From Tribonema minus (Eukaryota; Sar; Xanthophyceae; Tribonematales; Tribonemataceae), in contig JAFCMP010000157.1 in NCBI GenBank assembly GCA_017506865.1, positions 124,001 through 188,000 of the forward strand: DNA of 64,000 nucleotides, in the 5' to 3' direction. Both the position numbers and the translations under genes were made by a program. Under the pieces are notes generated by a model. That model was not told where the DNA came from, searched no databases, and saw nothing but the letters and a program-made list of their open reading frames with translations. Of the stretch, positions 41,985-62,632 are shown piece after piece. How positions within the stretch are numbered: the first letter of the stretch is position 1; every line of letters starts with the position of its first letter.

Positions 41985-42510
41985 AATGTGCAAAGTGCAA
42001 AGTGTTGCCATGTGCAACGTGCAAAGTGTTGCCATGTCCAAAGTGCAAAGTGTTGCCATGTGCAATGTGCAAAGTGTTGCCATGTGCAACGTGCAAAGTG
42101 TTGCCATGTGCAATGTGCAAAGTGTTGCCATGTGCAACGTGTAAAGTGTTGCCATGTGCAAAGTGCAAGGTGTTACCACGTGCAAAGTGTCACCATGTGC
42201 AATGTGTTACCGCGTGCAAAGTGTTGCCATGTACAATGTGCAAAGTGTTGCCATGTACAATGTGCAAAGTGTTGCCATGTGCAAAGTGTTGCGATGTGCA
42301 ACGTGCAAAGTATTGCCATGTGCAAAGTGCAAAGTGCAAAATGTTGCCATGCAACGTGCAAAGTGTTGCCATGTGCAACGTGCCAAGTGTTGCCATGTGC
42401 AAAGTGCAAAATGTTGCCATGCAACCAAGTGTTGCCATGTGCAACGTGCAAAGTGTTGGTATGTGCAAAAGGCAAAGTGTTGCTATGTGCAAAGTGCACA
42501 GTGTTGCGCT
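41985..42510 (+). repeat. 24-bp minisatellite, unit 3
   Basis: Same repeat as unit 2, with an internal order nearly identical to unit 4. Confidence 0.9.
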
Positions 42511-42519
42511 TCAAATCTG

Positions 42520-42925
42520 CAACGCCAACTTCAAATCTCCAATATCTCCAACACCAACTTTAAATCTCCAATATCTCCAACACCAACTTCAAATCTCCAA
42601 TATCTCCAACACCAACTTCAAATCTCCAATATCTCCAACACCAACTTCAAATCTCCAATATCTCCAATGCCAACTTCAAACCTCCAATATCTCCAACACC
42701 AACTTCAAATCTCCAATATCTCCAACACCAACTTCAAATCTCCAATATCTCCAACGCCAACTTCAAATCTCCAATATCTCCAACACCAACTTCAAATCTC
42801 CAATATCTCCAACGCCAACTTCAAATCTCCAATATCTCCAACACCAACTTCAAATCTCCAATATCTCCAACACCAACTTCAAATCTCCAATATCTCCAAC
42901 ACCAACTTCAAATCTCCAATATCCA
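42520..42925 (+). repeat. 29-bp minisatellite, longest example
   Basis: Units of ctccaacaccaacttcaaat plus ctccaatat. Shorter versions lie at 39,320-39,565, 41,245-41,485 and 44,135-44,320. Confidence 0.9.
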
Positions 42926-43321
42926 ACGCCCAACTTCAAATCTTTAAAGTACAAACATGCGATATTTCGGCACCTACACTCATATCGATGCTACAACACA
43001 GAATGTTATCACTCAGGATTTGTATCCCTCCAAAAAAGTTTTGGCACATAGAGAGGGAGGTAGGACACCTTGTTGGCTGAACGAGTTTTGCTCCAGAACA
43101 AATTTGAATTATTAATTAATTAATTGCCTAATTTAAATAGTGTCAGTATCGTCGTCAAGCGCCGTTTGTGAGCGGCGGATATAAATATTATTTTTCAGAA
43201 TCTGGCCTCCCTAGGGTGCACTCTTGAACGATATGTAGCCACCAAAGTTACTAGGCAATGTTTCGATATCCAGTAAGTGTTGTCTGCCTGCACACATACC
43301 GCTTCTGGGCAGTAGGGCATG

Positions 43322-44132
43322 GAATGTGCAAAGTGCAAAGTGTTGCCATGTGCAACGTGCAAAGTGTTGCCATGTCCAAAGTGCAAAGTGTTGCCATGTG
43401 CAATGTGCAAAGTGTTGCCATGTGCAACGTGCAAAGTGTTGCCATGTGCAACGTGCAAAGTGTTGCCATGTGCAACGTGTAAAGTGTTGCCATGTGCAAA
43501 GTGCAAGGTGTTACCACGTGCAAAGTGTTACCATGTGCAATGTGTTACCGCGTGCAAAGTGTTGCCATGTACAATGTGCAAAGTGTTGCCATGTACAATG
43601 TGCAAAGTGTTGCCATGTGCAAAGTGTTGCCATGTGCAACGTGCAAAGTGTTGCCATGTCCAAAGTGCAAAGTGTTGCCATGTGCAATGTGCAAAGTGTT
43701 GCCATGTGCAACGTGCAAAGTGTTGCCATGTGCAACGTGCAAAGTGGTGCCATGTGCAACGTGTAAAGTGTTGCCATGTGCAAAGTGCAAGGTGTTACCA
43801 CGTGCAAAGTGTTACCATGTGCAATGTGTTACCGCGTGCAAAGTGTTGCCATGTACAATGTGCAAAGTGTTGCCATGTACAATGTGCAAAGTGTTGCCAT
43901 GTGCAAAGTGTTGCCATGTGCAACGTGCAAAGTGTTGCCATGTGCAAAGTGCAAAGTGCAAAATGTTGCCATGCAACGTGCAAAGTGTTGCCATGTGCAA
44001 CGTGCCAAGTGTTGCCATGTGCAAAGTGCAAAATGTTGCCATGCAACCAAGTGTTGCCATGTGCAACGTGCAAAGTGTTGCTATGTGCAAAAGGCAAAGT
44101 GTTGCTATGTGCAAAGTGCACAGTGTTGCGCT
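43322..44132 (+). repeat. 24-bp minisatellite, unit 4
   Basis: It contains an internal duplication of about 290 bp relative to unit 3 (for example aaagtgcaaggtgttaccac at both 43,498 and 43,782). Confidence 0.9.
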
Positions 44133-44906
44133 TCAAATCTCCAACGCCAACTTCAAATCTCCAATATCTCCAACACCAACTTTAAATCTCCAATATCTCC
44201 AACACCAACTTCAAATCTCCAATATCTCCAACACCAACTTCAAATCTCCAATATCTCCAAAACCAACTTCAAATCTCCAATATCTCCAACACCAACTTCA
44301 AATCTCCAATATCCAACGCCCAACTTCAAATCTTTAAAGTACAAACATGCGATATTTCGGCACCTACACTCATATCGATGCTACAACACAGAATGTTATC
44401 ACTCAGGATTTGTATCCCTCCAAAAAAGTTTTGGCACATAGAGAGGGAGGTAGGACACCTTGTTGGCTGAACGAGTTTTGCTCCAGAATAAATTTGAATT
44501 ATTAATTAATTAATTGCCTAATTTAAATAGTGTCAGTATCGTCGTCAAGCGCCGTTTGTGTGCGGCGGATATAAATATTATTTTTCAGAATCTGGCCTTC
44601 CTAGGGTGCACTCTTGAACGATATGTAGCCACCAAAGTTACTAGGCAATGTTTCGATATCCAGTAAGGGTTGTCTGCCTGCACATTTACCGCTTCGAGAC
44701 AGTAGGGAATGGCATGTGGCGTGCGGGCCCGCTTCGCGACATTCTGTCACGTGCATGTTCTCAATGCTGCCCAGCATCAAGAGACTGCAGTGCACGCATT
44801 GTGTCTCGACATCAACAAGAACATTAGTTTCAATTGACACTCGCGTTTGCCCAGGTGCACAAAATGACGGCAGTGTCTTCACGTGCTCTAGCGCAGCCGG
44901 CAGTGG

Positions 44907-44936
44907 GTGAGCTTCGCTCACGTGGCCTACGGCCAC
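44907..44936. repeat. Double-hairpin element 3
   Basis: Abutting hairpins gtgagc-ttc-gctcac and gtggcc-tac-ggccac. Both stems are perfect. Confidence 0.85.
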
Positions 44937-44971
44937 CCAACCATTGTGACTTTCATACTGTTGGCACGAGG

Positions 44972-45001
44972 ATCACCGAAGGTGATGTGGTCGAAGACCA
45001 C
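44972..45001. repeat. Double-hairpin element 4
   Basis: Abutting hairpins atcacc-gaa-ggtgat and gtggtc-gaa-gaccac. Compensatory and loop changes distinguish it from the element at 37,125. Confidence 0.85.
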
Positions 45002-45163
45002 CCCTAGCGTACACAATGTACACTTTTGCAGCGATTGATGCTATTGAGGCCAGTGAGCCTTGTGGTTGCATGTGCCACCATTGCCGCTCTGGAAAGCATG
45101 GATTCACTTGAATCTGTTGTGCATGGTGTGGTCAGTGCATGCATTGTAAGCACACCGCTCTGT

Positions 45164-45195
45164 GTCGCCGAAGGCGACGTGGCCCTTCGGGCCAC
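45164..45195. repeat. Double-hairpin element 5
   Basis: Abutting hairpins gtcgcc-gaa-ggcgac and gtggccc-ttc-gggccac. Confidence 0.85.
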
Positions 45196-45537
45196 TCGTT
45201 CTGTAAGTGCTCCGCGCTTGCAATGTACCTGCACTCGCGTGTCACACGCAAATGTTGCTGGCACATTTGGTGGAATCGATTGTTTCAATGTGGCACACTG
45301 GAACACGAGTGGTGATGGAGCACGCACAGCATCGCGAGATGTAGGCCTCACTGTGTAAATGGAAACGAATGACTCTGTAGATGCTTTGAGTCAATGCTGG
45401 CATGCATCAGGAGACTCCAGTGCAACACTGTGTCTTGGTACCAACGATAATCAATTGTTTCAATTGACACTTATGTTTGCCCGGGTGCACAGAATGACGG
45501 CACTGTTGTTGCTTGCGTGCCGCGTAGACAGCAGTGG

Positions 45538-45552
45538 GTGAGCTTCGCTCAT
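45538..45552. repeat. Decayed double-hairpin element
   Basis: gtgagc-ttc-gctcat has one mismatch; its second hairpin is lost. The flanks (cagtggg) match element 3. Confidence 0.6.
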
Positions 45553-45721
45553 GTGCCCGTAGTGCAACCGTGGCGGCTATTGAAACTGTTCGCACGTGTC
45601 CAGCAATGTACACTTTGTCACAGTTGATGGTATTGAGGCGAGTGAGTCATATGCGTGCCTGGTTTCAGTATTGCCGCTTTGAAAAGCATGGATTCTATTG
45701 AATTACGCGCGCGTGGTTGGA

Positions 45722-45752
45722 GTGACCTTCGGTCACGTCGCCGCCTGCGGCG
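45722..45752. repeat. Double-hairpin element 6
   Basis: gtgacc-ttc-ggtcac followed by cgccgc-ct-gcggcg. Confidence 0.8.
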
Positions 45753-45942
45753 TCTGTCAACAGGGTCCATGTATTCAGCATAAGACATGTACGAACACTA
45801 GCACACTACATGCAAACGGTGCTGGTACATTCAATTGAATCCATCGTCTCAATGTGGCGCAAGAACCACTCGTTCCAGTTGACATGCAAGCACACTCAAC
45901 AGTGTCAATAGTGTCCATCGCGTCCATAGATGCACTTGAAGG

Positions 45943-45976
45943 GTGGGCTTCGCCCACATCGTGCCTTCGGCACGAT
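45943..45976. repeat. Double-hairpin element 7
   Basis: gtgggc-ttc-gcccac directly followed by atcgtgcc-ttc-ggcacgat. Outer bases aagg...cctt can pair to enclose both. Confidence 0.85.
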
Positions 45977-46056
45977 CCCTTGCAGCAATGCATGATAATC
46001 AAGACAAGCTAAGTTACAGCACTTGCGTCAATTGAAACCATGTATTCTAACGCATA

Positions 46057-46485
46057 CTATGACCACTGCTTGACAGGGGTTGCGTTGATCTCCAGTTCGT
46101 ACTCTGCGTAAAACCCTTGCCTGGGCTTGACCGTGGCACCCAGCCTCAGCCACACGGGGGCCACTGATATGCTACACACGCTCCAAAAGCGCGAATAGTG
46201 CTCCTTCGCCAGGTCCAACATGGCCCTGCACACACCTTGCTTGCGCATGCCACGCCTCACCACGGTGCTGTATATGCACATGACGTCGCTGCTACATGTA
46301 CGGGGAACGATGATCATGTACCCAACGACCTTGTCATCCCCTTCACGGGTGGCGATCACGCACTGCGAGTCACTGTCGTGCCGAGCACCATGACTCTCAA
46401 CCCACTGGGCATCGCAAGCGTGTCTTTCGTTGAACTTCTCCAATTGCGCGCGCACTTCGCACAGCTGATGCATCTCGTACTTCAT
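46057..46485 (-). CDS. GNAT-type N-acetyltransferase-like protein, 142 aa
   Basis: Single-exon frame from ATG (46,485) to TGA/TAG-bounded end. It has the order expected of a GNAT fold: an N-terminal helix region, CVIATREGDDKVVGYMIIV (strands 2-4), then MCIYSTVVRRGMRKQGVCRAML, whose RRGMRKQG resembles the acetyl-CoA pyrophosphate loop (R/Q-x-x-G-x-G/A), and a C-terminal FYAEYELEI strand. Length suits a minimal GNAT. The substrate cannot be told. It stands alone amid repeats. Confidence 0.55.
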   Translation of the reverse strand: MKYEMHQLCEVRAQLEKFNERHACDAQWVESHGARHDSDSQCVIATREGDDKVVGYMIIVPRTCSSDVMCIYSTVVRRGMRKQGVCRAMLDLAKEHYSRFWSVCSISVAPVWLRLGATVKPRQGFYAEYELEINATPVKQWS

Positions 46486-47664
46486 CGTCGTGTGTCTGAC
46501 GGGTGTCTACTATGAGATGCACATTATAACTGGCCAATGAAGAACGCGGTTTCGGACGCAAGTGCGGTCAGCAGCGATGAAATAACATTGCTGTCTCCAT
46601 GGATGTCACATACAACATGCCATATACACCAATGGCATCAATAGAATTCATGTACTCCTATTCCTTTGCCCAAGTTTGCTGCTGATCATGTCCCAAGGTT
46701 GCAAGTGCTTAGGCCTGCTGATGCAACGTACAGATGCCACATGCAATACTGCCTAGCGATCCATTTTTGTAACATGTACACCCGCCTTGACATTGTGTTC
46801 CTGCTGTTTGTATGTGCTTGCTCTTGCATCAGACATCACTTGTTATGTGACGCCCTCCTGAAAATGTTTTGCCACATAGAGTGGACAGTAGGACATGGTG
46901 TTACCTGAACGGGTTTGGCTCGCGAATAAATTTCAATTAAATCAATTAAAATTAATTAATTAGGCTAATTTAAATAGTGTCAGTATCGTCGTCAAGCTCC
47001 GTTTGTGTGCGGCGGATGTAAAAAGTATTTTTTCAGAATCTGGCCTTCCTAGGGTACACTTTTGAACGATCTGTAGCCACCAAAGTTACTAGGCAATGTT
47101 TCGATATCCAGTAAGTGTTGTATGACTGTGTGTGTACCGCTTCGAGACAGTAGGGTATGGTGTGTGTCATGCGGGGTCGCTTCGCGACAATCTGTCACGT
47201 GCATGTTCTCAATGCTGCCTAGCATCAAGAGACTCCAGTGCATGCATCCTGTCTCGGCATCAACAAGAATCAATAGTTTCAATTGACACTCGCGTTTGCA
47301 CAGGTGTACAGAGTGTCGGCATGTTGCATTGTTTTTGCTTGCGTCAAATGTGTCAACTGTGTCTGTTGTGTGGAGTGTGTCCTAGCGTTTCTGGCTTGTC
47401 TGGTGTTGCCAGTCTGTCTTAAGCTTTACATGTGTCTAGTGTGTCCTAGCGTTTCTAGCTTGTCTAGTGTTGCTAGTGTGTCTTATGTTTTACATGTGTC
47501 TAGTGTGTCTTATGCGTCCCACTCGCCACTTATGGGCTTTGCGTTCATTGCGTCAATGGTGTCAATCGTGGCTAGGGCTAACCCTAACCCTAACCCTAAG
47601 CCGAACTGGCTAGGGCTAACCCTAACCCTAACCCTAAGCCGAACATGCCTAATTGTGTGCTGCA
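46486..47664. repeat. Intergenic; diverged AT-rich satellite block
   Basis: About 46,850-47,110 is a diverged single copy of the satellite's conserved blocks (aaattaattaattagg, agtgtcagtatcgtcgtcaa). About 47,150-47,320 is the dispersed repeat seen at 44,700-44,880. CCCTAA runs lie at 47,575-47,605 and 47,613-47,640, each followed by gccgaac. No gene is seen. Confidence 0.75.
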
Positions 47665-48519
47665 ATGCTTGAATGCATGCTGAATTTATCCAGCGCATGT
47701 GCCGCTGGCCATAGCGACAGTGAGTTGGCGTCATGTGACAGTCAGTCGTCGTCATGTGAAAATGATGTACCGCACACCAAGGGTGCATGCTCCACAAAGC
47801 AAGCGCGAAGCAAGCCGAAGCCTGAGTGTCGTACATGCACAGGCACAGTGAAAGAAGCATGGCACACGCAGTGCACGACGTGCTACTGGACACGACGGCG
47901 GCTGGCAGAGGCGCGACGCAAGGCAGCGGAAGAGGCCGCAGCACATATGGCTAGACAAAGGGCGCAAGCAGCGGCAGAACAGAAGCGTGTAGAGGCCATA
48001 GCAGCGATGGAAGCTGCGGCACTCACTGTAAAGGTGCGTGAGGCAGAGGAGAGCTGCTTGCAAGCCTTGCAAGACGCTGCACACATGTGCTTGAAGAGGG
48101 GGCGCGAAGAAGACTCTGCTACTACAGATAGGGCCTTCATTGCTGCAGTCACTCCAGATGACTTCTCTCCAGGTGATATTGCTGGCGACAAGTGGACTTT
48201 GCACTTTCCTGCAAAGCACAGGCTCGTCATGGAGCTAGTGCGAGGAACCGAGAACACTGAACCTCTCCGGGACCTTTGCAACATGCTGGCAAGCAAGGTC
48301 TGCACTATATTCTACACGAGGCAATTCACTCTGGACGGAAGGGGCAGGGTGGACTTAAACATTGGCAGGTCCATTTGGCATTATGAACGAATTCCTGTCC
48401 GTGGCGGGTGTATCTCGCAATGTTTGGACGTGGCAGAGCCACTTGTCCCTCGCACAGCTCATGCACAGGGGCGATGTGATTGTGAGCGAATGTCAAGATT
48501 TAAAGCTTCTTGGTTGTGA
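47665..48519 (+). CDS. Coiled-coil protein of unknown function, about 284 aa
   Basis: I do not recognise it. The first ATG (47,665) begins a Cys/Ser-rich N-terminus. A CxxC-x(10)-CxxC-like cluster follows (CRTCTGTVKEAWHTQCTTCYW), which may bind zinc, then a long Ala/Arg/Glu helix (about residues 75-130) likely to form a coiled coil. After that comes a globular part (FSPGDIAGDKWTLHFPAKH; DLCNMLASKVCTIFYTRQ). The combination of a Cys cluster and a long helix could fit a DNA-associated or transposon-derived protein, but that is speculation. The 3' end runs into the 205-bp repeat family, so the last residues may not be native. Confidence 0.4.
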   Translation: MLECMLNLSSACAAGHSDSELASCDSQSSSCENDVPHTKGACSTKQARSKPKPECRTCTGTVKEAWHTQCTTCYWTRRRLAEARRKAAEEAAAHMARQRAQAAAEQKRVEAIAAMEAAALTVKVREAEESCLQALQDAAHMCLKRGREEDSATTDRAFIAAVTPDDFSPGDIAGDKWTLHFPAKHRLVMELVRGTENTEPLRDLCNMLASKVCTIFYTRQFTLDGRGRVDLNIGRSIWHYERIPVRGGCISQCLDVAEPLVPRTAHAQGRCDCERMSRFKASWL

Positions 48520-48599
48520 TCATTTTGAGGGTTCTTCTAGCTGGTTACAAGTGCGCACCTCAAGCAACCAAGAAGCACGCCATAATTCACTGCTTCAAC

Positions 48600-49940
48600 A
48601 GACACACAGCTTGCCTGAATGCGGCTCGGCTCCCTGATCGCCATTTTACCTTTTCGCCATTTGGCCCTTTCGCTATTTACAATCAAAGATCGAAAGGCCG
48701 GCGTAGTTGAAGCCTGCTGCTGTAGGCACAGGGCCCTGCAGGGATGGCACAGATTCAGCAAAGGATCTCACTACCACATACAGCAAGCAGCAACATCTCG
48801 CAATATTTGGATGTGGCACTGACTTGTCCCTCACACAGCTTATGCACAGCTTGCCTGAGTGCGCCTCGGCTCCCTGATCCCTTTTCGCCCTTTCGCCCTT
48901 ACGCTATTTTCAATCACCGATCGAAAGGCCCGAAGGCCGGCGTAGTTGAAGCCACCGAGTGAAGGCACATGCACTCTGGCACAGAGCTCACGACCAAGTA
49001 CAGCAAGCAGCAGCGTCTAGCAATGTTTGGACATGGCACAGCCTCTTGTCCCTCTTACAGCTTATACACAGCTTGCCCGAGTGCGCCTCGGCTCCCTCAT
49101 CGCCATTTTACCATTTCGCCCTTTCGCTATTTACAATCACCGATCGAAAGGCCGGCGCAGTTGAAGCCTGCTGCTGATGAAGCAATTGGCACAGCGATGG
49201 CACAGATTCAGCAAACGAACGCACAACATAATTTTTTGCTTCAAGGGACACACAGCTTGCCTGAGTGCACCTCGATCCCCGATCGCCGTTTTACCATTTC
49301 GCAATTACATTTCGCAATCAACAATCACCGATCGAAAAGCCCGAAGGCCGGCGCAGTTGAATATATCTGCGGTTGCAGCAGAGTCGCATAAACGGCATAG
49401 GCAGCAAACGAGCACAGCAAATAATACCTTGCTTTAGTAGACCACAGCTTGCCTGATTGCAGCTTGCTCCCAGAGCTCATTTACCTTATGCCATTTCGCC
49501 CTTTCGCAATAAACAGATGCCGATCGAAAGGCCGGCGTAGTTGAAGGCAGCGGTTGCAGCAGAGTCGCTTAAACAGCATAGGCAGCAAGCGAGCACAGCA
49601 AATAATACCTCGCTTCGATGTACACACAGCTTGCCTGAGTGCGCCTCGGCTCCCTGTCCCGCCATTGTACCTATTCGCCTTTTTGCCCTCTCGCAAATTA
49701 TAAATCGCCGACACAACAGCTGGCGGAGTTAAAGCCAGCGGTTGAAGGCAACACTACGGCTCAGCAAACGAATGGACCACCACACACAGCAAATATTACC
49801 TCGCTTCAGTAGACCACAGCTTGCCTGATTGCAGCTTGCTTCCTGACTGCCATTTCACCGATTCGCCATTTCGCCCTTTCGCAATCAACAAATACCGATC
49901 GAAAGGCCAGCGTAATTAAAACCAGCGGTTGAAGGCACAT
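48600..49940 (+). repeat. Second array of the 205-bp repeat family
   Basis: Cores with ctccctgatcgccattttac and gatcgaaaggccggcgtagt recur near 48,610, 48,845, 49,075, 49,255, 49,445, 49,630 and 49,812, more diverged and more unevenly spaced than the array at 37.6-38.5 kb. Confidence 0.85.
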
Positions 49941-50079
49941 GTAGTGTGGCACAGACAGCAAACGAGTTCACGATTGATGGTAGTAAGGTGCATCTTCATC
50001 CCTGTTTTGTAAAGTATGGTTACAAGGCACGAACAAATGACAACCCGGCAGAAGACCAACTGTCAGGCCAATGTGCATG

Positions 50080-51530
50080 CTCTATCAATCACGTACTTTG
50101 TCATATCTATAGACAACCTGTGTTGGAAACTTTGCGTCACAAAGTGTTAAAGATTTGCACGACAAAGTATTACAAACTGTTTGCAGTTCTGGCCCTCCTA
50201 GGCAGTACTCCGGGGTGGACTGTGAAAACATCACTGGGGGTATGACAAGTTTCACAAAGTGGTGTTTGGAGTTGTGTGTACCACACCATAATAGATGGAC
50301 ATGACACATACATGTACATTGTCATATCTATAGACAACCTGTGTTGAAAACTTTGCGTCACAAAGTGTTAAAAGTTTGCGTCACAAAGTGTTATGTCTTG
50401 AAAGTGTTTGCGTCACAAAGTGTTGAAAGTTTGCAGTTTGCGTCACAAAGAGTGTTTTTGCTTCACAAAGTGTTGAAAGTTTGCGTCACAAAGTGTTGAA
50501 AGTTTGCGTCACAAAGTGTTGAAAGTTTGCAGTTTGCGTTACGAAGTGTTTGCGTCACAAAGTGCTGAAAGTTTGCAGTTTGAGTGTTGCCGTTTCAAAG
50601 TGTTCGCGTCACTAAGTGTTGCAGAAAGTTTGCAGTTTGCGTTACAAAGTGTTGCCGTTACAAAGTGTTTGCGTCACAGAGTGTTATTAGTTTGTACATA
50701 TATCTTCTCCAACTTCTCCAACTTCTCCAACTTTTCCAACTTCTCCAACTTCTGCAACTTCTGCAACTTTTGCAACTTCTGCAACTTCTGCAACTTCTCC
50801 AACTTCTCCGGCTTCTCCAACTTCTCCAACTTCTCCAACTTCTGCAACTTTTCCAATGGAGTACAAAGTGTCAAGATGCAGTAAAATTGTGTCATTAAGG
50901 CACCTACATACACACCGTCTACTACTAACAAGAATATCATCACTCAGGTTTTGCATCCCTCCTGAAACAGTTTTGTCCCATAGAGAGGGAGGTAGGACAC
51001 CATGTTACCTGAACGGGTTTGGCTAGCGAATAAATTTCAATTTTATTAATTGATTAGGCTAATTTTAATAGTGTCAGTATCATCGTCAAGCTCCGTTTGT
51101 GTCGGCTGATGTACAAAGTATTTTTACAGAATCTGGCCCTCCTAGGCGGTACTCCGGGGTGACTGTAAGAAACAACATCACTGGGGGTATGAAAAGTTTC
51201 ACAAAGTGGTGTTTGGAGTTGCGTGTACCACACCATAACAGATGGACATGACACATACATGTACATTGCATATCTATAGACAACCTGTGTTAAAAACTTT
51301 GCACCACAAAGTGTTAAAAGTTTGCGTCACAAAGTGTTACAAATGTGTTGAAAGTGTTTGCATCACAAAGTGTTGAAAGTTTGCAGTTTGCGTCAAAAAG
51401 TGTTGAAAGAACACTTTGAAAGTTTGCAGTTTGCGTCACAAAGTGTTGAGTGTTTTTGCGTCACAAAGTGTTGAAAGTTTGCGACACAAAGTGTTGAAAG
51501 TTTGCAGTTTGCGTTACAAAAGCTTAGGAT
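50080..51530 (+). repeat. Minisatellite region (tttgcgtcacaaagtgtt) with 9-bp array
   Basis: gtttgcgtcacaaagtgttgaaa units occupy about 50,120-50,690 and 51,290-51,520. A (TTCTCCAAC/TTCTGCAAC)n array lies at 50,705-50,860. A diverged AT-rich satellite block lies at 50,950-51,170. Sequence around 50,190-50,345 is duplicated at 51,130-51,300. No gene is seen. Confidence 0.85.
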
Positions 51531-51806: not shown

Positions 51807-51810
51807 CGAG
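51807..51810. repeat. Target-site duplication, left copy (CGAG)
   Basis: cgag immediately before the 5' LTR matches cgag immediately after the 3' LTR. Confidence 0.8.
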
Positions 51811-52108
51811 TGTTACGGATTGTACATTGTGGTATCCGTGTCTGATGATACCATTATTAGGGCATACCCCTGGTATGTCGGGTGATGATGCAGGGTTTCA
51901 TACATGTTACTCCTGAGTCAGATCCCCTGGATTGTGCCGAGGATCCAATTGCAACTTGCCAAAAAGGCAGCTGCACACTCACTTCTTTCTCTACCTCCGG
52001 TCTCGGCACAAGACAGCTATAGCTGAGGACACCCCCACCTCCACAGGTCTCCACCGACAACAAGGTAAGTTAGCATGCTGTAGCACACCGCTGAGCTCTC
52101 ATAAAACA
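51811..52108 (+). repeat. 5' LTR, 298 bp
   Basis: It begins tgttacgg and ends ataaaaca. It differs from the 3' LTR only at 51,850 (A; the 3' LTR has G). Near its end, caacaag|gtaagt is a strong splice donor at 52,065. Confidence 0.95.
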
Positions 52109-52109
52109 G

Positions 52110-52176
52110 TGGCACTCGAAGCAGGACCTGAACCTGCAACCCCCCGCTTCGCAGGCGGATGCCCTATCCGATTAGG
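52110..52176 (-). other. Captured antisense tRNA-Arg copy at the primer-binding site
   Basis: Read on the minus strand, this is tRNA nucleotides about 10-76: D-arm; anticodon stem TCCGC/GCGGG with loop CTGCGAA; 5-nt variable loop; T-stem GCAGG/CCTGC with loop TTCAGGT; the acceptor 3' strand TTCGAGT; discriminator G and CCA. Positions 1-9 are missing. The anticodon reads GCG and base 58 reads G. The non-genomic CCA and its position at the PBS show it was copied from the primer tRNA rather than being a tRNA gene. Confidence 0.8.
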
Positions 52177-52211
52177 CTGAGCTCTCATAAAACAGTGGCA
52201 CTCGAATCAGG
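52177..52211 (+). repeat. Duplicated LTR tail plus second PBS
   Basis: ctgagctctcataaaaca repeats the last 18 bases of the LTR. It is followed again by g-tggcactcgaatcagg, which is probably the original PBS (15 of 16 bases match the tRNA 3' end). Together with the tRNA copy this makes an 86-bp insertion. Confidence 0.85.
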
Positions 52212-53053
52212 CGCTTGTGCGTGTCCTCCGCCTTAGCTGCGAGGCCTCGCAACGCTTCACAGCGTTGTGCACGGTCGTCTGCCTCAATGGCGGAGCCACG
52301 CTAAGCTCGACCGCCCTCCGTAGGCTTCCAGGGTAGCACAGCGTAGTGTAGCACAGCGTAGTGTAGCACAGCGTAGTGTAGCACCGCTTGAACGTACACA
52401 TCGTGGCCGCCTCTCGTGGCCAGCTAACGACAATTAACCCGTACACATCGTGGCCGCCTGCCGTGGCTAGCTAACCTCAAGTAGGACGCTCCGCCTTCGA
52501 AGCGAAGTGGCACTAGTTATTTGTGTGTCTGTGTTTGCGCGAAGCAGACGACATTCACTGGCTCGTGCAGTCTCCCGCGGCTGCTCTCCTGTGTTGCTCA
52601 AGCAGGCATGCGCACATGTGTATCCCGACAGCACCCAGGTGCTCGCACATTGCCATGATCGACGCAACGAGCCTTGGATGTTGGCGTTATGTAGTCAGTA
52701 GGGCAGCCCTGACAGAGACTGTCTGCCGCGCCAGCTGCCGTCGGACGCTGGCACTGCCCTCTCCACGCTCAAGATGCGAGGCGTACAGGTGGCCACCCAT
52801 GTTGCATGTCATGACGCCGCCACGGCTTTGGTGGTAGAGCTGTGGACTTCACATGCACCATTCCTCTCGCAGCGACCCCAGCATCATATCGCAATGGGGG
52901 GAGGAGTGGTTTACTGGCAGCAAAGTGCACATGTGATGCTGTGCCCGCTGCTCCTGTTGGTTCATGACCACACGCATGAGCATAAAAACCACCACTGACT
53001 ACATGCACCAAAGTCTTGGAGCTCACCCTCTCCCTACTTTCTCGTCTCAGCAG
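52212..53053 (+). other. Untranslated leader with short tandem repeats
   Basis: A 15-bp unit (gtagcacagcgtagt) is repeated three to four times at about 52,332-52,385. A roughly 62-bp unit containing cgtacacatcgtggccgcct is repeated at 52,391 and 52,440. Short open frames have no recognisable product. Confidence 0.7.
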
Positions 53054-55417
53054 ATGGCAAACAATGAGAGTGGTAACGCGGCTGGGAACCAGGGAGCTGA
53101 GCGCAGGGGCAATGGCAAGCGTGCCGCCGCCGCCAGAGCCGCAGCCCCTGCAACCACTCCGCGTTCGTCCACTGCCGCTGCTGCTGCTGAAGCTGCTGCC
53201 AAGCAGGCGGAGGAAGCCGCTGGCCGTCCCCGTGCACGCTCTGGCGCGGACAACTCTGCCTCGGAGGGTGATGGACGCAGCGAGCGCGCCGCGCAAAACC
53301 CGGTGAGCCGCAGCCAAGACGCACTTTCTAGCACTCCTCCCGCTCCTGGTCGCGCACAGGACACCACCGTCAGGGAGCTTGTTCGCGCATCCAAGGCCAT
53401 AGCTCTCATCCCTGACCCCCCGACAGACGCTCCGGCGGCGGTCAAAGAGCTATTTGTGTCATTGCGCGCTGAGCACACCTCCCTTGCAGAGGAGTCGCGC
53501 CAAGCCTCTGACGCCGTTAACCGGCTCAAGGTTGCTCTGATGTGCGTGGACGCCGACATCCAACGCGCTCAGAAGTCTCTTGTCAAGGCCGCCACTGACG
53601 CTGAGCGCGCCGATATCCGCGAGCAGCTCACTGCTCTCTCCGCCGACAAGTCAGAGTTCGACGCTGCGCTGATCTCTTACAGGGCACCCCGCGAGGCCAG
53701 CAGCACTCAGCTGGTCATCCTACGCGAGCTAGCTACACACGCCCTAAACCTCCTCAACGGTGGCGCCACCGCTGAAGAGGTCGTAAACGCCATCGCCGCC
53801 AAGCGCAACGCTCGCGCAGGTATTGCTAACCCCTCGCCTGCCCACGACGCTCCTCGCGACGCACCCTCCCGCGATCCTGACAGGGAGCGCGTTGCACAGC
53901 TGAACATCATCACCAAACTCCCCTCCACATTATGCCTTGAACCGCTGCAGCTGACATCTGCGCTTTCCTCACGTGAACGCATGTGGCAGCAGTGGGGCGT
54001 GAAGAGGGAGTATTGGTCTGTTGCTCTTGATGCTGCCATCCCTGCAGACAAGCGTGCTGAGGTGTCTGGGCTCTCTGCCACTATTGACGGGGTTACCACG
54101 GGCTGGGACACCCTCACCTATGACCAGCGCGTAGCTGCCCTCACAACCAAATATGATGACTGGACTGCACGCCATACTGCGCGCGATGAGTGGTCTCGCC
54201 TAGTATACGACTGGCATGCTGAGTCCCCGCGTGACTTTGCCAACAGGCTTGACACTTATGGCCGGCGTGTAGAGGGGGGCTCTAACGAGGCCACTCGCCG
54301 TGAGAAGTTTTACAGCTGCATGCCTGACTTTGTTAAGGTCCAGCTGGACAGACGTGACAACTTCTGGCAGGACCCCCTCACAGTCAGCGTGAACCACGCC
54401 GCCGCCGTCTGGCGCACTCACTTGCAAGAGCATGGGATCCCGCTCCCAGACAGCGTTGGCGCTCACGACACTCCCGCTGTCGTCGCCACTGTCACCCCCC
54501 CTAAAGGCACCCCTACGCAGGCGCCTGATGCTGCAAGCCTTCCCCGGCGCAAGGCGTCCAAGGAGGCTAAGCGGCAAGAGTGTGTCCAAGCAGCCCGGTC
54601 TGCACTAGAGGCGGATAACACGGAGTTGGCGTTTGCGCAGCTTGCGGTGCTCCATGGCAAGGGCGCCCCTGCTGCTGCGCCGCCTTCCACGCCTCTCAAT
54701 TCCGGCAAGCGCAAAGCAGCGCAGGACGGCCAGCCGGCCTCTAACCCTAAGCCCGGCTTGACCTACAAGCCGTTCAACAACTGGACATGTAAGCGCTGTG
54801 GTGTGATGGTTACCACTGGCGAACGGTATGCCGATCATCACGCAAGCTCTGAGTGTCGGGACAAACGCCGCGCCCCGTCGCGCAGTCGCAGCCGCGACCT
54901 TGCGCCGCCTGCCTCTGCCGCGCCTGTCTTCGCGATGCAGGGAGCGCCCATCTATGCCATGCCGCCGCAAGTGGTCCCGCAGCTGGCTGCCATGCACGGT
55001 GCCGGCCCCGCAACCTCCTGGCCCACCGTGTACCAGGCACCTGCTGCCGCGGCGCCGGCACCAGCCTCAGCCCCCACTGCGGCCGCTGCCGCAGTGCAGC
55101 CGTGGACGGCCGACATCCAGGCAGCCATCGCCGCCGTCATGGCCACCAAACACAGTGAGTCAGTGCTCGACAGCCGCTTAAGCGTTCACGCACCCCGCTG
55201 CGCGACCGCAATGCTTGCTGCGCTGGGCGTCATGTCGTCTGCTGTAGCTCAGCCTGCCAATGTGTCTGCACCCCACGCCTGTTGCAAGTACCCCTGCTGC
55301 ACCTGCGACATTGCACGCTGCGCGCGCTGCATCGGCATCTACGCCTGTTGCGAGTGCCCCTGCGGCACCGGTGATACCGCATGCTGCGCATGCCTCTGCT
55401 GCATCTGCGCCTACTGA
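53054..55417 (+). CDS. gag: Retrotransposon Gag
   Basis: The start ATG at 53,054 (MANNESGNAAGN) sits just after a splice-acceptor-like tract. The N-terminal 130 residues are Ala/Arg-rich and disordered. Residues about 150-230 form a probable coiled coil (FVSLRAEHTSLAEESRQ; ADIREQLTALSADKSEF). The middle holds a capsid-like helical region (DWHAESPRDFANRLDTYGRR). A single atypical zinc-binding motif (CKRCGVMVTTGERYADHH...C, about 54,787-54,860) replaces the usual CCHC knuckle, followed by an RS-rich basic stretch (RAPSRSRSR). After about 55,270 the frame turns into improbable Cys-rich sequence. The adjacent frame continues as Ala/Pro-rich linker into the methyltransferase, so a frame change, programmed or mutational, lies near 55,270. 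Confidence 0.85.
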   Translation: MANNESGNAAGNQGAERRGNGKRAAAARAAAPATTPRSSTAAAAAEAAAKQAEEAAGRPRARSGADNSASEGDGRSERAAQNPVSRSQDALSSTPPAPGRAQDTTVRELVRASKAIALIPDPPTDAPAAVKELFVSLRAEHTSLAEESRQASDAVNRLKVALMCVDADIQRAQKSLVKAATDAERADIREQLTALSADKSEFDAALISYRAPREASSTQLVILRELATHALNLLNGGATAEEVVNAIAAKRNARAGIANPSPAHDAPRDAPSRDPDRERVAQLNIITKLPSTLCLEPLQLTSALSSRERMWQQWGVKREYWSVALDAAIPADKRAEVSGLSATIDGVTTGWDTLTYDQRVAALTTKYDDWTARHTARDEWSRLVYDWHAESPRDFANRLDTYGRRVEGGSNEATRREKFYSCMPDFVKVQLDRRDNFWQDPLTVSVNHAAAVWRTHLQEHGIPLPDSVGAHDTPAVVATVTPPKGTPTQAPDAASLPRRKASKEAKRQECVQAARSALEADNTELAFAQLAVLHGKGAPAAAPPSTPLNSGKRKAAQDGQPASNPKPGLTYKPFNNWTCKRCGVMVTTGERYADHHASSECRDKRRAPSRSRSRDLAPPASAAPVFAMQGAPIYAMPPQVVPQLAAMHGAGPATSWPTVYQAPAAAAPAPASAPTAAAAAVQPWTADIQAAIAAVMATKHSESVLDSRLSVHAPRCATAMLAALGVMSSAVAQPANVSAPHACCKYPCCTCDIARCARCIGIYACCECPCGTGDTACCACLCCICAY

Positions 55418-56856
55418 CGCTGGCATGACTGCACCGCCGGCACCCTTCCATGCACGCCCTCACGTGGCTGTTCCCCCTCCCCCTGCTGCTGCGACCCCTG
55501 CCGCGCCTCAGATGAGTGAGCGTGCTAGGGAGCAGGCGATGGAGCGCCATCTCACGCACGCGTCGCTGTGCTGCGGGATAGGCGGTTGAGAGGAAGGGTT
55601 TGCGCAGGCAAGTAAACTTGGCTTGCATGTCAACACAGTGCTCGCTGTTGACAACTGCGCGAAGACGTGTGACGCGTATAGGGAGACACACCCTACGTCT
55701 GCCGCACCCCAGTGCATGTCATTTGATGATCCCCGCATCATCCACCAACTGCGCAAGCTGCGCCCTCACCTCACTACGTCCTCTATCTACCCCTTGCACA
55801 GATTTTGCAAACGGGGAGGGAGTGGAGGGAGAGGCGGCGGAGCTGACATACAAGCTGGCCAAGGTGGTTACGGAGGCAGAGCTTGAGTTGGTGTTGTCAG
55901 AGAACGTCCCGCAGATGCTCAAGTCGCAAGCATGGGGTAGGGGGAAGGCCCACCTGTTGGCCAACGGGTACGCAGTCCTTGAGACAGTCATCAAGGCATC
56001 GGAGCTCGACACCTGCTGCAGGCGTACGCGCGCGTTTGTTCTCATTGTGCGCAACCGCTTTGGTGTCAAGGCCGCGCTCCAGCGCCTCTGCGCAGTCCTC
56101 AATGCTATGTGCAATAATGGAATTCCACTTTCCATGAGACACGTTCTGAAGGTTCCACGCCGTGTTCGCGGTTGCTTCTTGCGCCCTCGCGTGCGTTCCT
56201 CCAAAGGCGTGCATGACCTTGATGGACTGTTTGGCAGCCCCACGCGTCGCTGGCCTGGCTTGCCTCCTGTGAACCCTGCTCACTACATCCCATCCCCCGA
56301 TGACGCATGTGATGTACGTGATGCTATGACTGTCACCCCCCGCGACATGGCGCTCATGCTGACGTACAGGTCTGACTTGCCAACTGGCAGCCAAGAGCAG
56401 TTGCAGCTTTGGCTGGCCAACCTTGTCATGCCTGATGTCGCCCACGCATTCTTGCTTGCTGCATGGTGCAGTGGCATCTTTGGCATGCAAGAGTCCAGCC
56501 CCTCTGATGATGGCTTTGCAATGTCATTGGATCGCAACGCGCCCACACCTGAGTGGCTCGCTGACAGCACTGCCGCGCATGAGCACACAGACGGCACAGC
56601 CTTACGAGAGACGCAACACACGCTCGTGCAACGCTGCATCAACGCTGTCCAACGCATCTCCCGCGACAGTGAAAGCACAGCACGTGCCAAGCTGTCTGCA
56701 GTCGACTTAGTGCCAGACAACTCTGGTGAGCAGGAGAGCGACACAGACGCGGTCGCGCCCAGCTTTCTAAGAGAATCAGATGCAGCACCTGACCCAGTCT
56801 CTGCAGACGCTGACTCTGACACTGAGCCCATGGACTGCTCAGAAGAAGGGGGATAA
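55270..56856 (+). pseudogene. C5-cytosine DNA methyltransferase domain inside the retrotransposon
   Basis: An Ala/Pro linker leads into motif I SLCCGIGG (55,563-55,586), an in-frame TGA where Trp is expected, EEGFAQASKLGL and VLAVDNCAKTCDAYRETHP (SAM-binding region). A change to the next frame follows before motif IV TPCTDFANGEG (catalytic Cys at 55,795), then motif VI LSENVPQML (Glu at 55,900), motif VIII-like CCRRTRAFVLIV (56,014-56,049), and motifs IX-X (MTVTPRDMALML; LANLVMPDVAHAFL at 56,413-56,454). These are the ordered motifs of bacterial/DNMT-type C5 methyltransferases, which move a methyl group from SAM to cytosine C5. An acidic tail precedes TAA (56,854), and the protease follows in the same frame. 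The stop and frameshift make this copy inactive unless bypassed. Classification as C5-MTase is strong; subfamily and sequence preference are unknown. Confidence 0.85.
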
Positions 56857-58368
56857 CAACTTCAACAACCCCAACTTCAACTTCAACAACAGCAGCCCCT
56901 TGCGAATCTCGCAGCGCTTAGCTCTTCTCACGTGCCTGTGCAGCCAGGCGAGAAGGTGGCCTACGCCACAGGCAGCCCCAGCGCACAACGGTTCATCAAC
57001 CTCATCGCACGCATGCCCCACCAGCGAGACATCAAAGGGCTGAACATGGAGTGCATGCTGGACAACGGAGCCACGGCAAGCCTGCTGAGCATACAGCAGA
57101 GCGGACGGCTTCCAGAGGGTAGCGTACAACCGCTGCGACAGGGTGACTTCACCGCCATCGAACTCGCAGACAGCAAAACGCGCATCCCTATCACCGGCGC
57201 GGTGCAAATGACTCTGCGGTTCAGGAAGACCCTCGTTCGTCATCGGTTTTATGTGACCGACATACCCATGCCTGCCATCATCGGCGGCGACTTCTTTGGG
57301 AGCTTTGGCAGTAGCCTGTCGTACTCTACAATGGAGTTCTTCCCCACGCCAGACTCCAGCGTTGCCATCCCCATGCGGCACAAGCGAGACGACAAGGCAT
57401 CGAAGTTGTGCAACTTCAAGGGCCTAGTGGACAGAGTCGTCGCAGCCCCTGCTCCCACGCCCACTGCCAAGCGCAGTGCACGCCTCTTAGAGGAGGTAGT
57501 CATGTCACCATTTTCAGAGCAAGTGGTCGAACTCGCACTGTTCCCGCCTCCCAAGGACACGCCAGAGCACACCGCGTTGATTCACGCAAGCCATGACCAG
57601 GTGATGGAGAGCCTAGCTGCGCAGGGCCTTCGCGTAGCCTTCACTGCGGTCACAGTCGCACCCAACAACCCTGTCATGGTCAAGCTTGTCAACACTGGCT
57701 CCTTGCCTGTCCTCATCCGCAAGAACACCTTTGTGGGCACAGCCATTCCTGCCACAGAGGAGGACATCCTTAAGCTTGATGAGCAGACCAGTCAGAGCAC
57801 AGAGCAGCTCAAACGTGAGTTGCAGAAGCGTGTGCTGGAATATGCAGTCAGACACCACCAGTCGAAGGCGTTCAAGCAGGCCGCAGACGCTGCGCTCAAA
57901 GCCCTAGCCTCCGAACCGCCCATACAGGAGTCAGACTTCCCCAGCACTGCGCCAGGCGCACACAGTCCGCAGCGCTCACCTGGCTCCGCCGCCCAAGTGA
58001 ACGCATACCGCTCCGTCTCAGACGTTTGTGGGGATGAGGAGCTGCGCACCATGCTCATGACCGATGGTCAACTCAACCCCATACTCAAAGAGAAGGACTC
58101 GAAGGGGCAACTATGGGCAGACCGAGTCTTTGACGTCTTGAAGCGGCACCGCGCCTGCTTCCCGGCTGACCCGAAAAACCCGCACGTAACAGACACCACC
58201 GAATTCGACATTGACACCGGTGATGCATTGCCCATGGCGGACAGAGCCAGACGCTGGGCCCGCGCAGAGGCTGAGTACATCATGCAACAGGTGGCTCAGA
58301 TGCACGCACGCAAGCAGATTGAGCCCTCCAATAGCCCCTGGGCTTGCAACCCCGTTCTCGCACGATAG
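56857..58368 (+). CDS. pol: Retrotransposon aspartic protease and RT N-terminal region
   Basis: This is in the same frame as the methyltransferase, separated only by TAA. A Gln-rich linker precedes the protease: MLDNGATASLLS (putative catalytic Asp at 57,061; the usual D-T/S-G triad reads D-N-G) and IIGGDFFGSFG downstream. A long region of unknown role (about 57,370-58,060) follows, then the start of RT (TEFDIDTGDA, ARRWARAEAEYIMQQV, IEPSNSPWACNPVLAR), ending at TAG 58,366 in the middle of the conserved RT N-terminus. The frame continues past that TAG without shift, so the stop is a point mutation (CAG to TAG would restore Gln). Confidence 0.85.
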   Translation, partial: QLQQPQLQLQQQQPLANLAALSSSHVPVQPGEKVAYATGSPSAQRFINLIARMPHQRDIKGLNMECMLDNGATASLLSIQQSGRLPEGSVQPLRQGDFTAIELADSKTRIPITGAVQMTLRFRKTLVRHRFYVTDIPMPAIIGGDFFGSFGSSLSYSTMEFFPTPDSSVAIPMRHKRDDKASKLCNFKGLVDRVVAAPAPTPTAKRSARLLEEVVMSPFSEQVVELALFPPPKDTPEHTALIHASHDQVMESLAAQGLRVAFTAVTVAPNNPVMVKLVNTGSLPVLIRKNTFVGTAIPATEEDILKLDEQTSQSTEQLKRELQKRVLEYAVRHHQSKAFKQAADAALKALASEPPIQESDFPSTAPGAHSPQRSPGSAAQVNAYRSVSDVCGDEELRTMLMTDGQLNPILKEKDSKGQLWADRVFDVLKRHRACFPADPKNPHVTDTTEFDIDTGDALPMADRARRWARAEAEYIMQQVAQMHARKQIEPSNSPWACNPVLAR

Positions 58369-61300
58369 GGTGACAAGATTCGCTTCTGCATCGACTTCCG
58401 CAAGCTGAACTCTGTCACCAAGCGAGACAGCCACGGGCTGGGCAACATAGATGACATGCTGCACAAAGTGCAAGGCACCAAGGTGATCAGCACGCTGGAC
58501 ATGGCTGCTGGCTACCACCAAGTGCCCCTCACCGCGGCCGCAAAGCCCAAGACGGCGTTCCGCACGCCTGATGGTGGACTTTGGCAGTACACTGTGGCCC
58601 CTTTTGGCCTGGTGAACTTGCCCGCACAATTCACGCGACTCATGCACGGTGTGCTGGGCGAGGAAGCCCTGAAGGACTACGCAACCGTGTACGTGGATGA
58701 TGTGCTCGTCTATGACACCGACATGGAGGCCCACCTCCAGCACATTGACGCAGTCCTCACGCGCATTGAGGCTGCAGGCATGAGTGTGGCCTGGAAAAAG
58801 TGCCAACTCTTCCGCTCTGAGGTCAAGTTCCTCGGGCATATCATTGGTGCAGGTGGCATCTGCCCTGACCCTGAGAAGGTGAAGGCAATGGCAGACATGA
58901 GCGCACCCCTCAACGCTAGGGGCCTCGCGGACAAGCGGCTCGTACAAGTCGCTCTAGGCGTATTCAACTATTACCGCCGCTACGTGCGCAACTTTAGCGC
59001 CATCGCAGCCCCGCTTGTCGAGCTCACCAAGGATGGCGCGAGCATGGAGTGGAACGCGCGCCGCAGAAACGCTTTTGAGCGGCTGAAGCAGGAGATGTGT
59101 AGCGCTTCCATAGTGATGCATCCCGACTTCTCACTGCCCTTCGTGCTCTACACGGACGCCTCCAAGGTCGCCACCGCCGGTGTTCTCACGCAGTTCCGGC
59201 CGGTCACGGAGCTTGACAGCCCGCTCATGAAAGCCAAGCCACCAACCTGCACTGGGCGCACTAGCCTGGTTGAAGGGACCTTGCAGCGTGAGGTCGTTGT
59301 GGGCTACTTTTCAAAGATGAACTCTGTTCAGGACGCTAAGATGGGAGCCACAGCTCTCGAGTGTCTTGCAGTAGTCTTGTCAGTAAACCACTTTCGGCCT
59401 TACGTCTGGGGCAGGCCATGCACTGTCGTCACCGACGCAGCTGCCCTCCGCTGGCTCCTCACACTTCAATCGAATGACGGCAAGCTGCTCCGCTGGGCAA
59501 TGCGCCTACAAGAGTACGACATCACCGTCCAGCACCGACCTGGCAAGGTCAACTCCAACGCTGATGGACCCTCTCGGCTGCCTCAGCAGGCAGAGCTAGA
59601 CGCGCCCCGCCGTGTCGACCATGCCGATGAGGAGTGGCCCGACTCCATTGCCACTTTTGATGCGCCGCCGTCAGGTGTGCAGTTCGCAGACGACCCAGCC
59701 ACCACACACGCAGTGGAGCGAGCCGACACCACGGAGCCCGGACAGCGCCCCTCCGACGAGCGCGTCGCCACCGTGGCCTCATACAAAGGCTACATCGTGC
59801 AGCACTCTATGGGCACGCCTTTCCGCCTTAACGAGCTTGCAGCCTGCCTGGCCAGCTTTGGAGGCATCGCGCAGTCCCTCAGCGAGGTGACCCCAGAGCA
59901 AGCAAAGCAGCTGCTCCACATGCACGCAGATGAGTCCTCATGTGAGGTCGCATTAGGTGAAGCCGCCACGCTGCTCACCCCGGCCACCATGGATATGCAC
60001 ATGAACGCTCTCCTTGACGAACACTTCAAAGGGGACAGGGACAGCCTCGGCTTGGGCAACTTCGAGCCCTGGCGTCAAAGCAAGAAGCGTCGCAGCAACG
60101 CAGGAAAGGCCGTCCAGGTGGCCACCACCACTGCCACCACAATCGACGCGGACCCTGCTGACGCCGCCGTTGCACGTAACAACTGTGACGGTGAGCGCCC
60201 CCGTAAGCGCACTCTGCCGCGGCCTGAGCCCACGCCTCTTGCTGCGCAGCCAGAGCTTGCCAGTGCTGGACCGCCGCCTACACCTGCCATGCTGAGTCGT
60301 GAGGCCTTCATCGAATTTCAGCGCCGCGACCCCTTCTGCTGTGCAGTGACTCGCCTGCTGGCTGACAAGGAGCTGCCCACGGACAAAGACCTTGCCGTGC
60401 ACTTGATGGTGGCACGCGAGTGCTACAATCTTGAGCATGACGGTCTCCTCATACACTTCGCAAGCAGCCATCCCAAATGCGGACAAGTGCTGTGTCAATG
60501 GGTCGTCCCCGCCACGCTACGCACCCTGGTGCTTCGTCTGTGCCACGACGACGCCAGCGCGGGCCACTCCGGCGTCAGCGCCACCCACATTCGTGTGTTT
60601 GAGCGCTACTACTGGACTGGCATGGCCCATGACATCCGCACCTATGTGACCAGCTGCATGGCGTGCCAGCTGAACAAGAAAGCCAACACATCCCGGTACA
60701 GGACACACCTCTTTCCCCCCACTCGCATGTTCCAACGGCTCAACGCAGACCTAGTCTCGCCGGGCTCGAGGGCAGGAGGGTTTGAGTACATCCTTACTGT
60801 GGTTGAGGCCAGGTCTGGCTTTGTGTGGCTCTTCCCACTCAAGTCTAAAGACTCCAAAGAGGTGTCAGCGCACCTCTACACTGTCATCCTAGAGGCAGGC
60901 GCCCTCGTGGGAGAGATAGTCACTGATCAGGGTGGAGAGTTCATTGCTGGGGTCGTGCATGACTTGTGCACCAGCATGGGCGTGAAGAAGATCCAAACCA
61001 GTGGCTACCACCCCCAGACCAACGGCGTCGCCGAACGCATGAACGCTCGCGTCTTGCAATCACTCCGCCTGTGGGTGAACGACGGCCAAGACAACTGGCA
61101 CGAAGGCCTCGAGACACTACAGTTTCAACTGCGAGCAACTCCTCGCGACGAAACGGGCCTGTCACCGTTCTTCTGCGTCTACGGACGTGAAGCCACCCTG
61201 CCGCACGACGCGTTTCACCACGCAGACCGTCCCATGGACCTACACATGGAGGTCGAAAAGCGCGCTGAGGCACGGCTGTTGGCTGAAAAGGTCATCAGTG

Positions 61301-62616: not shown

Positions 62617-62632
62617 TCGAAGAAGGGGGAGC
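62617..62632 (+). promoter_or_regulatory. Polypurine tract
   Basis: gaagaagggggag, two bases before the 3' LTR, is the expected plus-strand primer site. Confidence 0.85.

Follow-up and report, generated by a model that had tools for sequence, protein, structure and literature searches.

Copies of tRNA-Arg, the probable primer, beside retrotransposon LTRs and the tRNA modifications they may record

Several families of LTR retrotransposons in the genome studied here carry antisense DNA copies of tRNA-Arg next to an LTR, and the bases in which the copies differ from the host genes sit at the usual sites of tRNA modification, so that the genome seems to be a natural record of tRNA modification. 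We consider it likely (probability roughly 0.84) that the elements are primed by tRNA-Arg(ACG) and tRNA-Arg(CCG), and that plus-strand strong-stop DNA extended into the tRNA was transferred or end-joined, leaving copies that bear the marks of modified bases. The sequences of the copies, their substitutions, ends and junctions, and the host tRNA genes were read directly from the assembly. The material was a stretch of 64,000 nt of contig C157 (positions 124001-188000), called the window below, and the genome to which it belongs (158 Mb, 554 contigs).

The window contains a Ty3/gypsy-type LTR retrotransposon at positions 51811-62930. Its LTR pair, beginning with TG and ending with CA, is bounded on both flanks by the short target duplication CGAG (4 bp, 51807-51810 and 62931-62934), it has a tRNA-complementary PBS and a polypurine tract, and the Pfam domains of pol, within 58369-61953, stand in the order RT - RNase H - integrase, all as in Ty3/gypsy elements. 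The integrase rve domain (PF00665) of pol scored 32.3 bits, slightly below the curated cut-off of 32.6. When the RT was used in a similarity search, the matches near the top were mainly environmental proteins with 53-71% identity. Genes for C5 DNA methyltransferases, a partial domain of which is encoded by one of the open frames, have been reported in retrotransposons of dinoflagellates and charophytes (accessible part of PMC5890265). Short tandem repeats form long arrays at 40000-51500 of the window, some of them inside Cys-rich open frames. The features of the element are as follows.

51811-52108, plus strand: 5' LTR (TG..CA, 298 bp), with a single mismatch to the 3' LTR
52110-52177, minus strand: DNA copy of tRNA-Arg(ACG), positions 76 to 10, differing from the gene L011 at 20a, 34 and 58 only
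52110-52127, plus strand: fresh PBS (PBS1), copied from tRNA positions 76-59, complementary in 18/18 bases to the 3' end of tRNA-Arg(ACG) isodecoder 1 plus CCA
52128, minus strand: tRNA position 58 (m1A58 site), G in the copy, A in 4/4 genes
52152, minus strand: tRNA position 34 (inosine-34 site), G in the copy, A in 4/4 genes
52166, minus strand: tRNA position 20a, T in the copy, C in 4/4 genes
52176-52194, plus strand: second copy of the LTR (U5) tail, 19 nt, identical to 52090-52108, with GC (52176-52177) common to the tRNA copy
52196-52211, plus strand: old, RNA-encoded PBS (PBS2), with one mismatch to the tRNA and, apart from single bases, equal to the PBS of the empty elements L005-L008
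52937-55417, plus strand: first long open frame, gag-like by position only, no Pfam match
55582-56856, plus strand: open frame with a partial C5 cytosine DNA methyltransferase domain (PF00145, E 1.4e-6, residues 69-160)
58369-61956, plus strand: pol, with RT, RNase H and integrase (PF00078, PF17917, PF17919 and PF17921 above cut-offs)
62619-62632, plus strand: purine tract GAAGAAGGGGGAGC directly 5' of the 3' LTR, identified by its sequence
62633-62930, plus strand: 3' LTR, its end without any tRNA copy

Relative to its empty relatives, the element has an insert of 86 bp between the 5' LTR and the old PBS, which consists of antisense tRNA-Arg(ACG) from CCA to G10, followed by an LTR tail. A single G (52109) separates the end of the 5' LTR (52108) from the tRNA copy; the sequence then reads TGGCACTCGAAGC.., complementary to the 3' end of tRNA-Arg with CCA, the TGG at 52110 being the CCA end. 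Another G stands between the second LTR tail and the second PBS. The two PBSs match tRNA-Arg(ACG) to different extents, PBS1 in 18/18 and PBS2 in 15/18 bases; compared letter by letter, PBS2 and the tRNA read CGAATCAGG and CGAAGCAGG, with one base different. Since 65 of the 68 nt are equal to a host tRNA-Arg(ACG) gene plus CCA, a chance origin of the copy is excluded. It starts with CCA at the PBS and extends 3' to 5' into the body of the tRNA, as is expected of a primer read-through copy. A sequence-only reading of the window had described an antisense tRNA-Arg with CCA, followed by a second LTR tail and PBS, with G at positions 34 and 58, and all this was found again when the letters were rechecked. 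The length of 67 nt given there has to be corrected to 68 nt if the GC at 52176-52177 is assigned to the tRNA, or to 66 nt if it is assigned to the LTR tail. In a search with the window stretch, 12 other places matched only from the second LTR tail onward, with at least 95% identity, and in the four that were read (L005-L008) the LTR is followed by PBS and internal region, the insert being absent. Other copies of the element, which the same reading had proposed to check for the 86-bp insertion, are mostly without it, as an event predicts.

Four tRNA-Arg(ACG) genes, forming two inverted pairs, were identified by ARAGORN, two with acceptor stems of the CACTCG type (L011, L012) and two of the CAACCG type (L015, L016). 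All four have C20a, A34 and A58. All four also have a T-T mismatch in the acceptor stem. A genome scan with an ACG pattern, in which either base was permitted at 34 and 20a and three mismatches were permitted, yielded 19 sites: the four genes (A34, C20a) and 15 copies distributed over several LTR families, all with G34 and T20a. The reversed-pattern control gave no sites. Position 58 is G in all 11 ACG copy sites that contain the T-arm. The prediction that host ACG genes would match the copy except for A34 and A58 held for both differences and had overlooked a third, C20a>T. Five loci (L001, L009, L010, L013, L014) differ from a gene at 20a, 34 and 58 only; L002 and L003 are also changed at 26 and 59 (two further changes in L002-L004), and L017-L019 at 65, 66, 68 and some other places. 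If 7 of the 64 positions are taken as misreading sites, an assumption modelled on the list in the accessible part of PMC13210174, the chance of three of three changes falling on them is 8e-4.

Four of the 15 copies (family F6; C537 twice, C97 and C104) contain no T-arm and have their start in the variable loop; they are included in the 15 and stand outside the position-58 count and the 16 loci considered below. These sites (L020, L021, L022) begin, after an LTR-like end, in the variable loop instead of CCA, which perhaps indicates an internal tRNA primer site. Two of the four form a 61-bp inverted repeat.

It could be argued that the copies derive from tRNA genes which are missing from the assembly and truly have G34, T20a and G58. 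The assembly is in 554 contigs, the PBS bases 65, 66 and 68 of L103-L105 form three combinations that agree with no gene found, and the host possesses Val(GAC) and Ile(GAT) tRNAs, making an Arg(GCG) tRNA less absurd than elsewhere; in most other eukaryotes Val and Ile tRNAs of this kind have A34. Such genes would, however, be needed for both ACG isodecoders, and in addition T20a CCG genes with A58 and with T58 would be required (see below), whereas both acceptor types of the copies are supplied by the ACG genes found, and T58 or G58 is unusual in a working tRNA. A tRNA-Arg gene with the anticodon GCG, which the sequence-only reading had named, together with G58, as the finding that would speak against it, was seen neither in the pattern scan permitting either base at 34 nor among the 53 ARAGORN genes in the examined loci (60 matches listed, 63 of 2861 first-look candidates scored), and a GCG gene was therefore rejected as the source. 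The list of tRNA genes is incomplete because only 63 of the 2861 candidates were scored. Taken together, an origin from missing genes appears very improbable. The Val(GAC) genes (L055, L062, L063, L073) and the Ile(GAT) genes (L057, L078) lie on large contigs. A third ACG isodecoder is unnecessary to account for the PBS bases of L103-L105 if these derive from the RNA-encoded PBS; the old PBS of L104 is TGGCACACAAGACAG. This does not account for G49A in L017 and L018.

Two genome scans for tRNA-Arg(CCG) found one gene and nine copies. The gene, on C90, has C20a and A58, lacks CCA and is followed by a T run. All nine copies have T20a and all nine retain C34. Six sites (C64, C102, C314, C539, C190, C461) read T at position 58, and the other three, C115 and the two duplicated C521 sites, read A. 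In seven of the nine CCA is exactly joined; in the duplicates C190/C461 the PBS contains an additional T. The loci L108, L111 and L114 differ from the gene only at 20a and 58. Two sites, C29 and C434 (L115, L116), were dropped from these counts, as they show similarity in the T-arm only and have no D-loop. Since the CCG copies keep C34, the A34>G change is confined to the tRNA whose gene has A34, whereas the change at 20a is found in both tRNAs. The acceptor bases of the copies follow the two ACG isodecoders (CACTCG and CAACCG) and the CCG tRNA. As controls, tRNA-Arg(TCG) and tRNA-Trp were scanned; the former gave a single site, the gene with C20a, the latter four sites, all genes with C20, and there were no copies of either. 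Retrocopying is thus not general to tRNAs here, as judged from the two controls scanned.

These data also bear on another explanation, the insertion of an ordinary tRNA pseudogene, a SINE or a piece of genomic DNA beside an LTR. A tRNA-like stretch in a repeat-rich region is what such an insertion would leave, but CCA is exactly joined to the copies although it is absent from the genes found, the copy adjoins the LTR and contains the PBS, its missing part is the 5' end and not the 3' end, and the same architecture is repeated in several families. We therefore give this explanation hardly any credence. A tRNA-derived SINE was rejected: there is no tail, and LTR sequence lies on either side. In TRIMs of the Helenus type a tRNA-like sequence unrelated to the PBS is located within both LTRs (accessible part of PMC10886601). 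This type was rejected as well: in the window the copy is antisense, includes the PBS and is located beyond the LTR, and the 3' LTR is without a copy.

The substitutions were probably caused by tRNA modifications, as their positions suggest. The strongest of the three cases is A34>G: it would reflect a reading of inosine-34 as G, and only the tRNA with A34 shows it. At position 58 the ACG copies read only G, and the CCG copies T or A. For m1A followed by G, mismatches to T and G with low C have been described in the accessible part of PMC4787781. The uniform G58 of the ACG copies is a point against the modification reading, as the mismatches at m1A obtained with other enzymes are mixed (PMC4787781, same part); it could also mean one ancestral copy. 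Position 20a, which is T in all 24 copy sites of the two tRNAs and C in all five source genes, is no less uniform, and this too counts against the reading. Our first choice is that C20a>T is probably a misread m3C, although we know of no case in which m3C is read only as T. In T. cruzi tRNAs m3C has been predicted at position 20 (accessible part of PMC13210174).

C and T forms of genes at D-loop position 20/20a, with T-run terminators, were also observed among other host tRNAs. This base is the only difference in Val-CAC (L051/L060), Lys-CTT (L052-53/L064-65) and Ile-GAT (L057/L078), whereas in Gln-CTG (L066/L067-68) the acceptor stem is also different. The Val, Lys and Ile sets look as though the difference had no consequence in the RNA, but all these sets are a hint only, because a freely varying loop base would give the same picture. 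C-to-U editing of nuclear tRNAs of the host at D-loop position 20/20a seems rather unlikely; in its favour are the T in 24 of 24 sites and the gene sets differing at 20/20a. If it did occur, the LTR elements would record an unknown tRNA editing system besides the known marks. No report of C-to-U editing at position 20 of nuclear tRNAs was found in the open literature, subscription papers being mostly outside the coverage.

Counting the segmental duplicates L002/L003/L004, L117/L118 and L112/L113 each as one locus, 16 distinct loci contain the T-arm, nine ACG and seven CCG. When matched strictly, 15 of the 16 have copies that reach G10 or stop short of it, the last copied position being G10 (L001, L108, L109, L111, L112/L113), 12 (L002-L004, L009, L010, L017), 13 (L019, L110), 14 (L114), 15 (L013, L018) or 17 (L014). 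The end of L110 is ambiguous, being at 13 or, with one mismatch permitted, at up to 9. In L117/L118, which were read by eye, the copy runs to position 3, past G9 without a change at 9, and the 5' half of the acceptor stem is present here only. Copying as far as G10 and the 2-nt GC overlap, both part of the sequence-only reading, agree with the sequence of the window. As to its further claim that the tRNA was copied to the modified base 9, the stop at G10 is there, whereas m1G9 itself is presumed and L117/L118 were copied past 9 unchanged.

The junctions beyond the tRNA copy are diverse. The U5 tail preceding the old PBS measures 19 nt in L001, 9 nt in L002-L004, 5 nt in L100 and 2 nt in L111; in L101 about 140 nt of LTR (the LTR being partly duplicated) are followed by the old PBS, and in L099 the joint is three bases inside the old PBS. 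In L102 (4543-5098) the series LTR, PBS, tRNA copy continues into part of the same LTR in inverted orientation, adjoined by a pol frame on the other strand; this is a palindromic product. The junction of L104 consists of a TTAGGG-like stretch (about 5060-5135), then 27 nt of LTR tail and the old PBS. The telomere-like stretch between tRNA copy and LTR tail looks like the trace of a switch by the enzyme to telomeric sequence. Other junctions are without an LTR tail. In five CCG loci TGTCGTACAGG, whole or in part, comes after the tRNA copy; elsewhere this sequence stands after the purine tract GGGGGCGAT (L124-L126), and our guess is that these loci contain a joint to the start of another LTR.

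In the LTR family F3, the four insert-bearing loci have four different junctions. The F3 joints (40 scored of 88 candidates) comprised these four, 17 in which LTR and internal region are directly adjacent (four of them read), and three with a 13-14-nt version, in which TGGCACTCG is followed by TTTCA again (one base shorter in C66), corresponding to an 8-9-nt tRNA-like copy. In an F3 element present in three copies (L122, L128-L132), both LTRs carry the TGGCACTCG stretch at their ends; the three copies represent one duplicated insertion because the 3' flank is common to all.

Since the junctions differ between loci, most captures look independent. Alternatively, a single tRNA copy with the substitutions might have been captured once in an ancestor and carried from one LTR family to another by template switches at the PBS. 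Switching between elements is naturally expected there, 15 of 15 ACG copies are alike at 34 and 20a and 11 of 11 with the T-arm have G58, and in a small lineage a short stretch derived from a tRNA has indeed become fixed in the LTRs (L122, L128-L132). A single capture is difficult to reconcile, however, with four junctions in one LTR family, with the partly duplicated LTR of L101 and the inverted LTR of L102, or with the 5' half of the acceptor stem being in L117/L118 only. T20a is found in a second tRNA as well, loci of one and the same CCG LTR family differ at position 58 (T in some, A in L110), and five ACG copies have no other change whereas the older-looking L018 and L019 have more. As to INDEPENDENCE, we argue that the junctions, the two tRNAs, the two ACG acceptor types and the T or A at 58 favour repeated capture, and that the uniform G58 and T20a oppose it. 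On balance, a single capture is improbable.

Repeated capture probably proceeded as follows. The primers of the LTR retrotransposons would be tRNA-Arg(ACG), in its two isodecoders, and tRNA-Arg(CCG). The tRNA would remain attached after minus-strand synthesis, and plus-strand strong-stop synthesis would pass out of U5 into it. The usual fate of the tRNA-extended product would be an early stop (m1A58) or disposal, but sometimes the RT would get past m1A58 with misincorporation, copy the anticodon arm (inosine-34 as G) and the D arm (C20a as T), and stop around G10, short of the usual m1G9. Through microhomology, the 3' end would then switch template. A frequent acceptor would be the U5 end on a minus strand reaching past the PBS into U5, which gives the arrangement seen in the window (LTR - PBS - tRNA copy - U5 tail - old PBS); at other loci the switch would be onto other DNA, or the tRNA-bearing end would be joined to another DNA. 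Every integrated copy would record the modification of its tRNA. Position 9 of tRNAs, which is next to the G10 stop, is usually m1G; it is from this that we infer a stop at m1G9, and the order of events is likewise inferred.

A U5 tail between the tRNA copy and the old PBS implies that the minus strand must reach into U5, as in the Ty1/Ty3 type of transfer (accessible part of PMC5371799). The old PBS downstream of the copies keeps its own mismatches to the tRNA, as extension of the minus strand into U5 predicts. By sequence match alone, the old PBS fits the tRNA well in F1 (16/16 in the empty L005), over 10 bases in F2 and over the first 6-7 bases only in F3, and the PBS of empty F2, F3 and some F1 copies also keeps mismatches to the tRNA, as is expected where, in the manner of Ty1/Ty3, the PBS is not rewritten from the tRNA. 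In HIV-1, m1A58 is held to stop plus-strand strong-stop DNA (accessible part of PMC13191261). According to the accessible part of a review on Ty3 (PMC5371799), plus-strand strong-stop DNA extends into the tRNA, forming dead-end products that pile up; the sequence of the primer is not passed on, and transfer takes place by R-U5 homology at a minus strand that reaches past the PBS. The loci described here look like rare products in which the tRNA-extended strand was used. The earlier reading of the copy in the window as a primer read-through product with modification-derived bases is supported.

Some of these steps have counterparts in known systems. A reverse-transcribed tRNA at an LTR end is likewise known from circular MuLV DNA, in which it lies between the two LTRs (Colicelli and Goff 1986, via the accessible part of PMC12220202); the MuLV case was, however, a laboratory circle with a spurious tRNA-Gly, whereas here many integrated copies of the elements' own likely primers carry substitutions at modification sites. 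In HIV-1, tRNA-mediated recombination induced by a hairpin (work of the Berkhout laboratory, via the same source) brought 63 and 65 nt of tRNA into the genome by template switching, to be compared with 61-68 nt in most loci here. In that case an engineered hairpin in nef was replaced and not an LTR-PBS joint, and the description as given in this part of PMC12220202 contains no modification signature. Yeast Ty1 and Ty3 have in common with our elements the plus-strand strong-stop DNA entering the tRNA, the PBS that is not rewritten and the minus strand extending into R-U5; there, however, the tRNA-extended product is a dead end and the primer is not inherited (accessible part of PMC5371799), whereas in our loci it was put to use or joined and has stayed in the genome. 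The same reading of errors and stops at 9, 20, 34 and 58 underlies misincorporation-based tRNA sequencing (OTTR, PMC12140624; T. cruzi, PMC13210174; accessible parts of both), which is done in a tube, in contrast to natural retrotransposons over evolutionary time. Genomic LTR elements with primer-tRNA copies bearing modification signatures were not found reported in the open literature (subscription papers are mostly outside its coverage). Read-through copies of tRNA are already known from retroviruses in culture (accessible part of PMC12220202).

These results suggest that genomes archive tRNA modification states. In eukaryotes with tRNA-primed LTR elements, CCA-initiated copies at the PBS could be searched for, and I34, m1A58, position 20 and the stop at 9 could be read from them without RNA. 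Strong-stop DNA that has run into its primer tRNA leaves heritable products here, in up to 4 of 21 sampled F3 junctions (40 scored of 88 candidates), and the uniform C20a>T is a testable hint of m3C at 20a or of an undescribed editing of nuclear tRNAs. Among the ARAGORN calls there was also a tRNA with the anticodon TTA (L076, C379:477377-477448), which would read UAA; its body resembles organelle tRNA-Gln.
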